Shown in pieces: positions 48,922 through 53,541 of a stretch of DNA of 64,000 nt (the first letter of the stretch is position 1; each line of letters starts with the position of its first letter). This stretch comes from Rhizobiales bacterium TMED25 (GTDB lineage Bacteria > Pseudomonadota > Alphaproteobacteria > Rhizobiales > TMED25): the NCBI GenBank assembly GCA_002168075.1, contig NHCE01000010.1, positions 1-64,000 of the forward strand, read 5' to 3'. The notes below the pieces were generated by a model. The model was not told the origin of the DNA. It ran no database searches and saw only the letters and a program-made list of their open reading frames with translations. The position numbers and the translations under genes were made by a program.

Positions 48922-49689
48922 TTAATGCATATGGATTGCATCATTGAGGTAAATACAGGTAAGTATTGCAAATACATATGCCTGTAAAAATGCTACAAGT
49001 ATTTCTAAGCCAGTAAAGGCAACTATAAATGCTAGAGGCGCAATTCCGAGTGGCGATATAAAAATATTACCCGAGAAAAACATTCCCGCAACAAAAAACC
49101 CAAATACTTTTAACATGGTATGACCTGCCATCATATTTGCAAATAATCTTACAGATAGACTAACAGGTCTTGTGAGGTATGATATAACTTCAATAATAAC
49201 TAGCAGTGGTAATAGTGCTTTTGGAACACCCTTTGGGACAAAAAAATTAAAATATTTTATTCCGTGTACTATAAAACCAATAATGGTTACACCAAAAAAT
49301 ATTACAATGGCTAAAGCAAATGTTACTATAATATGACTTGTCACTGTAAATGTATATGGGATCATTCCTAGCATATTACAAAACAGAACAAACATGAATA
49401 GAGAAAAAATAAAAGGGAAATATCTCTGGCCCTCATCCCCAATATTATCTCTTACCATCTTTGCAACAAACTCATATGAGAGTTCGGCTATAGACTGAAG
49501 TCTTGTCGGTACAGTAGCTCGTCCATTAAATGCAAATAAGGTTAGAAAAATAATAAGCGCCACACTAGCAACCATGAATAAAGATGAATTTGTGAAGGAG
49601 AGATTTAGACCAAATAACTCTATATCAACAAGCTCAACAATATCAAATTGATGCATTGGATCTGGGGCGCCAGACTTTTCTACTGCCAT
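48922..49689 (-). CDS. atpB: F0F1 ATP synthase subunit a
   Basis: A 255-residue membrane stator subunit. The essential arginine is in the segment RPVSLSVRLFANMMAGH, and the last helix GLEILVAFLQAYVFAILTCIYL is conserved. The opening PMHQFDIVELV is typical for alphaproteobacteria. It is separated from atpI by about 100 bases. Confidence 0.97.
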   Translation of the reverse strand: MAVEKSGAPDPMHQFDIVELVDIELFGLNLSFTNSSLFMVASVALIIFLTLFAFNGRATVPTRLQSIAELSYEFVAKMVRDNIGDEGQRYFPFIFSLFMFVLFCNMLGMIPYTFTVTSHIIVTFALAIVIFFGVTIIGFIVHGIKYFNFFVPKGVPKALLPLLVIIEVISYLTRPVSLSVRLFANMMAGHTMLKVFGFFVAGMFFSGNIFISPLGIAPLAFIVAFTGLEILVAFLQAYVFAILTCIYLNDAIHMH

Positions 49690-49790: not shown

Positions 49791-50099
49791 TCATTTACTT
49801 TTTGGAATATTTTCATACAATTGTCTAGATGTATTAATCGCAGTTTTTATTCCTGAGATAATACCAAGTATTAATAAAATAATAAAAAATATGGGCTTTG
49901 TATCTAACCATTTATCTATATACCATCCCAAAACAGCACCTACTACGCAGGAGACAACCAATTCAGTAGACAGCCTCATAGCTATTGATATTTGCTTACC
50001 TCTCTTCTCTTTATACTTTGCGTTTATATCATTGCGACTTGATTTATAGCTATCAATTTTTCCTGAAATTTCTTCTAATTTTTTTTTCTGTTTATCCAT
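49791..50099 (-). CDS. atpI: ATP synthase accessory protein AtpI
   Basis: A 102-residue protein with a charged N terminus and two membrane helices containing GAVLGWYIDKWLDTKP and FFIILLILGIISGI, the alphaproteobacterial AtpI pattern. It assists assembly of the c ring. It begins only 8 bases after the stop of smc, which places the F0 genes in the smc transcription unit. Confidence 0.88.
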   Translation of the reverse strand: MDKQKKKLEEISGKIDSYKSSRNDINAKYKEKRGKQISIAMRLSTELVVSCVVGAVLGWYIDKWLDTKPIFFIILLILGIISGIKTAINTSRQLYENIPKSK

Positions 50100-50107
50100 A
50101 TTGCTAT

Positions 50108-52384
50108 CTATACTTGAGTCATACTTTCAGCTTCATTTAAATCAACTGATAAAATTACACTTTCACCTTTCTTAGCCATTGTAACACCATATAATCTATC
50201 CATCTGTGACATTGTGTATGGATGATGGGTAACAATTAGAAATTTTGTTTGTGAATTTAATGATAATTCCTTTAGAAGATCACAGAATTTCTTTATATTA
50301 TTATCATCAAATGGAGCGTCTACTTCATCTAAAATACAGACAGGGGATGGATTTTCAAGGAATACAGCGATTATTAATGCTATGACTGTCAAAGCCTGCT
50401 CACCTCCAGATAGGAGTGATATGGTTTGAGGTTTCTTACCTGGTGGCCAAGCTATTATTTCTAAACCTGATTCTAATATATCTTCTTCATCATTTATTTT
50501 TAATTCAGCGTTCCCACCATTGAATAATTTTTCAAATAATAATTTGAAATTATTATTCACTTTTTCAAATGACTCTCTGAGTCTGGTTCTTGCTTCTTTA
50601 TCAATTTCTATTATACCTTTTTGTAGAGTATCAGTTGCGGATATGAGATCATCTTTTTCTGCACTTAAATTGTCGAATCTTACTTTTATTTCATTATATT
50701 CGTCCTCCGCCGCTAAATTTACAGAACCAATTTGTTCACGTTGCCTAATAGCTTGTGACAATTTTTCTATAATTATGGATTTATCCAGTAAATCGGATTT
50801 GAAATCATCAAGAATATTAAGTGGATTTATTCCGATTTTTATTTTTATTTTATCTTTTAGATCTAATTTTTTTTCGTCCAGATTTTCTTTTTGTGCTTTT
50901 AGTTGAATCAAAGCCTCATTATCTTTTATCAATGTATTTTCACATAACTTCAGATGTGTATTAACTTTATATAATTTATTTTCATACCGGCTCAAATTCT
51001 CATTTATTGTGTTCTTTAAATCTCTGAATTTAGTTATTTCATTTTGTAATTCTAATTGCTTTTTATTAATTTCGTTGGGTAATTTTTCCAATTCACCACT
51101 AGTTAATTGACATTGTTCTAGTCTATTATTGAGTTCGGATATGTGATTGATTGATATCGAATTCCTATTTTTCCAAGATACTTCTTCTTTCATCGTATCA
51201 TTTAAATTTTTATCTAATTCTCTTTTCTCACGCAGCAGATTCTGTGAACTTGTCTCTTTTATATCAGCAATAGTCTTTGCGTTATAAAAATCTAGTTTAA
51301 TTTTCTCCAAACTATTTTCCAGCTTATTTATATTACCTATACTAGAGAATCTAGATTTGTACTCCTTTATATTTTTTCTATAAATTTTTATATTCTGATC
51401 TAAGCTTTCAATTCGTGAGGCCGATGATATAATTGATTCATTTTGCAAGAGGATTTGTTTTTCAATATTATAGCTATTTTCAGCTATGATATTTTTTTCT
51501 TCGACAAGTTCCTGCCATTTCTTTCTGAGTTTTATTTCCCTTATTCTCTCTTGTTTTAGACTTTTTACTTTGTCTTCATAATCGAATTGAATGGAGTTAA
51601 TTTCAATCTCTTTTTCTTTAATTGATTTTATTTTTTCTGATAATTCTTTTTTAGCTAATAAGATATTCTTCTTTTTATCTTCTGGTTTTAGCTTTGTTAT
51701 TAAACCATCCCACCTAATTATAATGCCGGCAGAAGTTAATACCACTTGACCAGGCTTTAATAGAGATATTATTTCATCTATATTCTCGTTATTTGTAAAT
51801 CCAGTATAATTGAGATAATTATTTAATTCATTTGGACCTTCAACTATTTCATTTAAGGGGTATATTCCACTAGAAAATTTTTCTTGGAATTTATTATCTT
51901 GAGATATCCAATATTGGCTATCATTATTATTAAAAGTTGAATTTTCGAGGTCAGATAAAATATATGCAATTTTTTCTTCGTAACCTTTTTTTATTTGTAT
52001 TTTATCAATCAGTGTATTCTGCTTACTGGCAGTATTTATAAATTCTTCTGTCTGATCTTTTGAATTTATCAGCTGTTTAATTTTTATCTCGATATCTATT
52101 TTTTTACTTTGAATTTGATTTTCCGCCTTGGATAGTATTTCAATAATACTTTGGCATTTCTCAACATCATCTAAAATTTTTTTGATTTCATTATCCAAGT
52201 TTTTGTGTCTAGTGGTCAGAATATACTTTTCTTTATTCAAGGTATTGCTTGTTTCACTATTTTTTAGGCCCTGGGAAATTCTAATTTTCTCATCCTCACA
52301 GATTTTAAGCTCTGCATTATTTTTATGGATCAGAGTTTCTAGATTTTCTCTTTCAGTTTTTTTTGTACTATTTCGGACAAACAA
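50108..52384 (-). CDS. smc: SMC chromosome segregation ATPase, C-terminal part (shifted frame)
   Basis: About 750 residues: coiled coil, the hinge domain (around residues 165-250, with the segment opening SGIYPLNEIVEGP), the returning coiled coil, and the C-terminal head with the ABC signature LSGGEQAL and Walker B CILDEVDAPFDD. It continues the N-terminal part encoded immediately upstream but in the -1 frame; joined at the A8 run the product would be about 1,145 residues, the normal SMC length. The only start in this frame near the boundary is a TTG without a ribosome binding site, so independent translation is unlikely. Programmed frameshifting, transcriptional slippage, or an indel in the homopolymer (biological or sequencing) are the options. 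Confidence 0.9.
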   Translation of the reverse strand: MFVRNSTKKTERENLETLIHKNNAELKICEDEKIRISQGLKNSETSNTLNKEKYILTTRHKNLDNEIKKILDDVEKCQSIIEILSKAENQIQSKKIDIEIKIKQLINSKDQTEEFINTASKQNTLIDKIQIKKGYEEKIAYILSDLENSTFNNNDSQYWISQDNKFQEKFSSGIYPLNEIVEGPNELNNYLNYTGFTNNENIDEIISLLKPGQVVLTSAGIIIRWDGLITKLKPEDKKKNILLAKKELSEKIKSIKEKEIEINSIQFDYEDKVKSLKQERIREIKLRKKWQELVEEKNIIAENSYNIEKQILLQNESIISSASRIESLDQNIKIYRKNIKEYKSRFSSIGNINKLENSLEKIKLDFYNAKTIADIKETSSQNLLREKRELDKNLNDTMKEEVSWKNRNSISINHISELNNRLEQCQLTSGELEKLPNEINKKQLELQNEITKFRDLKNTINENLSRYENKLYKVNTHLKLCENTLIKDNEALIQLKAQKENLDEKKLDLKDKIKIKIGINPLNILDDFKSDLLDKSIIIEKLSQAIRQREQIGSVNLAAEDEYNEIKVRFDNLSAEKDDLISATDTLQKGIIEIDKEARTRLRESFEKVNNNFKLLFEKLFNGGNAELKINDEEDILESGLEIIAWPPGKKPQTISLLSGGEQALTVIALIIAVFLENPSPVCILDEVDAPFDDNNIKKFCDLLKELSLNSQTKFLIVTHHPYTMSQMDRLYGVTMAKKGESVILSVDLNEAESMTQV

Positions 52385-53541
52385 TTATTATAATCACTTT
52401 CTAGCTTTTTATAATTTTTTGTAGCCTGGGTAGATGCCTCAATTACATTTTTCTCAACTTTTAGGATCTCATCAATACTATTTGATATTTCATTTTTCTT
52501 TGCCACTAAATAATTAAGCTGTTCATCCTGATCTAAGGTATTTTTAGTCTCTCGTTCCAGGTCATATTTAATTTGATCAATTTGGGCTTTATTATTCTTA
52601 ATTCTCTCAACTGTATATTGAAGCTCATTTTTTAGGTTAAGTTCATCTCCATTTTTTTGTTGAAGTTCTTCTTGAGTATTTTGAAGATCAACTTTTATTG
52701 GTACGATTTTTCCTATTATATCTTCGGCTTCTTCTGATGACTTATTTATTTCAGCTTTGCTATTATTGATTTTAACTTCAATATTTGATATGCCATTTGT
52801 ATACGTTGTTTCTTTTGTTTGCACATCATACCAGTCTAATTGCAGAATCTCACGTTCATACTGGCGGATCTTTGCTACAATTGATTTAAATCTCTCTGCT
52901 TGATTTGATTGCTTTCTTAGGCTTGTTAGTTGTGATCCAATTTCATTCAATATATCTGATATTCTATCTATATTTGTTTTCGTAGCATTAAGCCTGAGTT
53001 GAGCTTCATGTTTTCGATGATGAAGACCACTAATTCCAGCGGCTTCTTCTAATATTTTTCTTCTTTCATTTGGCTTTGATTCAATTATTTGATTTATTTG
53101 GCCCTGCTTAACAATTGAAACTGAATGGGGGCCTAAAGAATGATCTGCGAAAAAGAGCTGAACATCTTTAGCCCTCTTCTCAATTGAATTTATGTAATAC
53201 TTAGATCCAGAATTTCTCTCTATTCTTCTTTTTATCTCGTATTCACCTATTTCGTTATTTGAGCTTACGGATACATTTTGTTTGCTATTTAAAATAACAG
53301 ATACTTCAGCAAAATTTCTTGAAGCCGATGTATCAGTTCCTGAAAAGATAACATCATCCATTTCAGATCCTCTAAGATTTTTATAAGATGTCTCTCCCAT
53401 AACCCATTGTAAGCTATCCAGCACATTTGATTTACCACAGCCATTTGGACCAACAATCCCTGTTAGTCCATGCAATATGTCGAACTCTGTAAGTTTGTCA
53501 AAAGATTTAAATCCATGAAGTTTTATTTTTTTTAATTCCAT
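52339..53541 (-). CDS. smc: SMC chromosome segregation ATPase, N-terminal part
   Basis: A 400-residue frame with the SMC N-terminal head, Walker A GPNGCGKSN at residues 31-39, followed by the start of the first coiled coil. SMC dimers bind and loop DNA to organise the chromosome, together with ScpA/ScpB. In this frame it stops soon after an A8 run, about 25 bases after the point at which homology continues in the -1 frame. The ATPase needs the signature motif and Walker B of the downstream part, so the fragment alone cannot be active. It follows the DsbA-like gene by 9 bases. Confidence 0.92.
   Translation of the reverse strand: MELKKIKLHGFKSFDKLTEFDILHGLTGIVGPNGCGKSNVLDSLQWVMGETSYKNLRGSEMDDVIFSGTDTSASRNFAEVSVILNSKQNVSVSSNNEIGEYEIKRRIERNSGSKYYINSIEKRAKDVQLFFADHSLGPHSVSIVKQGQINQIIESKPNERRKILEEAAGISGLHHRKHEAQLRLNATKTNIDRISDILNEIGSQLTSLRKQSNQAERFKSIVAKIRQYEREILQLDWYDVQTKETTYTNGISNIEVKINNSKAEINKSSEEAEDIIGKIVPIKVDLQNTQEELQQKNGDELNLKNELQYTVERIKNNKAQIDQIKYDLERETKNTLDQDEQLNYLVAKKNEISNSIDEILKVEKNVIEASTQATKNYKKLESDYNNCLSEIVQKKLKEKI
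52357..52364 (-). other. smc: A8 run / A_AAA_AAA slippery site within smc
   Basis: On the minus strand the smc reading frame runs CAA AAA AAA CTG, giving a zero-frame A_AAA_AAA heptamer. Reading the last A twice (-1) or transcribing nine A instead of eight joins the two smc frames without loss of residues. The stop of the N-terminal frame is only about 16 bases downstream. A possible stimulatory hairpin downstream is weak (5-bp stem, 16-base loop). Confidence 0.85.

Follow-up and report, generated by a model that had tools for sequence, protein, structure and literature searches.

Probable assembly slip, or else a private mutation, behind a frame break at an A8 run in smc of Rhizobiales bacterium TMED25

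In the programmed -1 frameshift site of Escherichia coli dnaX, the heptamer A_AAA_AAG is accompanied by an upstream Shine-Dalgarno sequence and a downstream stem-loop; the heptamer A_AAA_AAA is also a usable -1 slippery sequence. In Blochmannia, four to eight genes per genome are frameshifted at poly-A tracts, and the rates of the genes tested were not above normal (PMC3017870). In addition, a laboratory drift yielded a functional enzyme from a gene frameshifted in an 8A run, through bypass of the shift (PMC3812077). Here, a similar break is described in the smc gene of Rhizobiales bacterium TMED25. The analyzed DNA (hereafter, the window) covers the first 64 kb of contig 6 in a draft genome of 1.42 Mb that comprises 10 contigs and is 98% complete.

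In the window, smc is represented by two minus-strand frames of 400 and 758 codons that overlap by 46 bp. The 5′ part (52339..53541, minus strand, 400 aa) contains the ATPase N-lobe with the Walker A motif GPNGCGKSN and the first coiled-coil arm, and it ends at an out-of-frame TAG. The 3′ part (50108..52384, minus strand, an open frame of 758 aa) contains the remaining first coiled coil, the hinge, the second coiled coil and the C-lobe, with the signature motif LSGGEQ and the Walker B motif CILDEVDAPF. The Pfam SMC_N domain was detected in both parts. The frame changes at a run of eight A's (52357..52364, minus strand), which is read as GTA CAA AAA AAA CTG in frame zero and includes the heptamer A_AAA_AAA in that frame. 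According to the TBLASTN analysis, residues 1–393 of the 1144 aa SMC protein of the nearest sister genome (G008, locus L039) match the first frame with 80% amino acid identity and residues 394–1144 match the second one with 71% identity, the junction being located at position 52363. Judging from these sequences, the two parts together would form an SMC condensin ATPase of ~1150 aa with two lobes, coiled coils and a hinge. The open reading frames and the sister alignment thus confirm the initial annotation, in which smc was split into two frames with a 46-base overlap and a switch on the A8 run. Its further statement that Walker A lies in one part and the signature and Walker B in the other, with a normal SMC length for the joined protein, is borne out by the motifs, the Pfam matches and the alignment with the sister protein.

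The gene order around the break is ordinary. The minus-strand order of DciA-like, DsbA-like, smc, atpI and atpB genes is identical in the nearest sister, which upholds the earlier claim that smc is followed by atpI-atpB; the names of the four neighbors were assigned by reading the sequences. The atpI-like gene (49791..50099, minus strand) is located directly 3′ of smc, and atpB, encoding F0 subunit a (48922..49689, minus strand), is located downstream of it. The genome is AT-rich with many A runs (the GC content of the window is 32%), and A8 was matched 58 times across the window, overlaps counted, versus 38 ± 8 expected. A8 runs account for just 0.7% of the bases of smc; that the break falls on one of them is thus non-random, and is what slippage or a homopolymer error of any kind would lead one to expect.

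Apart from the one-base break, smc shows no decay. No further stop codons were found in either part, and Walker A, the signature and Walker B are intact. The dN values were 0.12 for the 5′ part and 0.18 for the 3′ part, far below dS, which was above 1.3 and saturated; the earlier impression that both parts are otherwise undecayed therefore holds. In the protein trees, the branch lengths of the window and the sister were 0.17 and 0.13, respectively, for the 5′ part, and 0.28 and 0.18 for the 3′ part. The resulting 3′/5′ ratio of the window (1.66) is close to that of the unbroken relative L046 (1.61) and gives no sign of a pseudogene. Relaxed selection on the 3′ part was considered and rejected, as identities to outgroups were almost equal to those of the sister in both parts and the branch ratios were only mildly elevated.

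In the nearest sister, smc is a single frame and the site of the break is read GTT CAA AAG AAA ACT, with nine bases between C and CT (AAAAGAAAA), where the window has eight A's. The remaining members of the genus and both other members of the family also have a single frame across the break point, and among the relatives compared only the window has a pure A8 there. Neither the slippery run nor the frame layout is conserved in the sisters, and a search for the site in viral contigs gave no match. The ancestral site probably had nine bases, CAA AAR AAA ACT, as suggested by the alignment. The initial annotation had taken a frame-restoring run length in reads or close relatives as a sign of an error or a strain-specific mutation, and the nine bases and single frame of the nearest relative point that way. 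The four options it had listed without choosing among them were programmed -1 frameshifting, transcriptional slippage, mutation and error; the last two are favored here, and programmed frameshifting is unsupported. The presence of a whole smc in nearly all sisters makes an assembly slip, or else a private mutation, the likeliest origin of the break, rather than a frameshifting device.

One other member of the genus, MED766 (G011), also has a broken smc. Its gene (locus L047, PAHC01000011.1) is out of frame ~830 bases from its start, one base short at an A10 run; this position is ~115 codons earlier than that in the window, and in the neighboring L046 the run is interrupted by a C. Across the break point of the window, the MED766 gene stays in one frame. 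Since the two breaks are at different A runs, they were not inherited and represent two separate one-base losses.

Internal frame breaks were further counted in a gene-by-gene comparison of stretches from six genomes of the genus. Two breaks were found in 412 genes of the window genome and two in 178 genes of MED766, versus none in 785 genes of G001, G008 and G010 together and none in 184 genes of G009. All four breaks are located at A runs and each is one base short. The second break of the window genome is in a gene encoding a Kdo/WaaP-like kinase (L128, contig 6, ~247119–247128), where the frame changes by one base at a cluster of A8, A5 and A6. In MED766, the second affected gene is sigma-54 rpoN, which goes out of frame at an A10 run (contig 5, ~196255–196285). 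Several other candidate frame changes were dropped as antisense shadow frames or over-long starts.

The genomes also differ in isolated N's, which are strewn in the window genome (340 in 707 kb of the assembly), MED766 and G009, and are absent from G001, G008 and G010. Among 80 named loci, N's were present only in NAT392 and NP992. Contig 1 of the window genome and the region of ~173–234 kb of contig 6 contain hundreds of isolated N's, several of them at third codon positions by eye. This suggests that the isolated N's reflect a consensus of merged strain variants. Taken by N content, N-bearing genomes had 4 breaks in 774 genes and N-free genomes had 0 in 785 (p = 0.06). The names NAT392, NP992, MED766 and NAT146 (G009) are similar in form, province plus number, to those of the Tara Oceans genomes of PMC5769542, for which per-sample Megahit assemblies were merged using Minimus2 at 95% identity. 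It may be that the window genome was assembled in the same way. An error-prone long-read assembly was rejected, since only 2 breaks occur in 412 genes.

The data are thus best explained by an ordinary full-length smc gene from which one A is missing in this draft assembly only, and we consider this explanation probable, though by no means secure. The likeliest cause would be a consensus error: a strain-merged consensus can drop a homopolymer base, and a short-read metagenome assembly combining several samples would then have eight A's instead of nine in its consensus. The SMC protein encoded by the true gene would function normally. Ranking second as the cause would be a genuine one-base deletion that arose recently through slippage during replication; an error is the more likely of the two. 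Several points count against an error. A run of eight A's poses no great difficulty for Illumina reads; the N-bearing G009 has no breaks; and no N's were found inside the 64-kb window, so that no consensus conflict is visible at smc. This last point, together with the weak contrast between N-bearing and N-free genomes, leaves a real mutation a smaller but appreciable chance.

Under such a mutation, one A would have been deleted recently in the lineage or in part of the population, and slippage at A8 would yield a little full-length SMC, either because RNA polymerase adds an A or because the ribosome shifts -1 on A_AAA_AAA, as proposed for Blochmannia. We regard this as possible but less probable than a consensus error. 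It accords with the position of the break exactly on A8 in a gene whose two parts are otherwise intact, a one-base indel in an A run of an intact gene being the pattern from which slippage can rescue a product, and with the abundance of A runs at 32% GC. However, the window genome contains ~180 coding runs of A8 or longer in ~490 kb and still has only two broken genes. In addition, bypass at A8 would be expected to be partial, and if the A8 is real, SMC made by slippage would be scarce. In some bacteria, smc null mutants survive slow growth. A broader version seems unlikely to us, namely that routine slippage during transcription lets free-living AT-rich marine alphaproteobacteria tolerate A-run breaks in core genes, such as smc in the window and both smc and rpoN in MED766; such a habit has so far been described mainly in insect endosymbionts.

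Programmed -1 ribosomal frameshifting or programmed transcriptional slippage, by which two SMC products would be made on purpose, was raised by A_AAA_AAA standing in the correct frame at the break. This interpretation is very unlikely. The nearest sister has AAAAGAAAA in one frame, so that the slippery run lacks conservation, and the zero-frame product would be a truncated N-terminal part with no known role. No upstream Shine-Dalgarno-like stimulator was found before A8 in the sequence. The RNA folds downstream, modeled free of pseudoknots, are weak (z from -0.9 to -1.7, with 10–40 of 200 shuffles as good). With the run and the break unconserved and a stimulator not found, the suggestion of programmed frameshifting lacks support. 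Compared with E. coli dnaX, the window smc shares an in-frame A-rich heptamer and differs in that neither stimulator was seen.

An incipient loss of the SMC-ScpAB condensin in the lineage, with smc as a pseudogene, is extremely unlikely. Neither scpA nor scpB was detected in the window genome or in MED766, the two genomes in which smc is broken, which would fit such a loss; against it, smc shows no decay beyond one base. In relatives, scpA and scpB are located between argS-nagZ and kdsA-eno, and a search for eno and argS in the window genome showed that both are missing as well. Since these two genes, implausible to lose, are missing from the same neighborhood, loss of the condensin partners was rejected, and the absence of the argS-scpA-scpB-eno stretch from a 98%-complete draft most likely reflects a gap in assembly or binning.

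The least credible interpretation is a true split gene whose halves are translated separately and associate via the coiled coil. In its favor, each half is long and free of decay, and the split is located within the first coiled-coil arm. Against it, no ATG occurs in the 3′ frame before codon 398 (only TTG or GTG are candidate starts, the first being a TTG at its head with no Shine-Dalgarno sequence), the 46-bp overlap and homopolymer join resemble a slip, and the split layout is absent from all sisters.

The observation on smc is confirmed, and its cause is most likely ordinary. An error at this site would warn against taking a homopolymer indel that is private to one draft metagenome genome for recoding. 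Should the breaks at poly-A runs be true for smc and rpoN in the two members of the genus, slippage-tolerant core genes would extend to free-living plankton.

Among the described systems, tssM1 of Citrobacter rodentium (PMC4256274) resembles the window smc in that a stop follows soon after the A run and additional A's in the transcript can bring back the frame. However, tssM1 has an A11 run, demonstrated transcriptional slippage and two required products, whereas the smc run is an unconserved A8 at which slippage would be putative. The frameshifted genes of Blochmannia vafer (dnaX, dnaG, pth and others; PMC3017870) are similar in having an A-run indel in an intact important gene of an AT-rich genome that slippage could restore. 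At least one Blochmannia frameshift, in dnaX, is common to species, whereas the smc break is private and A8 is at the short end. With homopolymer indel errors of draft metagenome assemblies, the window differs in its own freedom from N's and shares the loss of one base at an A run, intact relatives and N's elsewhere in the genome.
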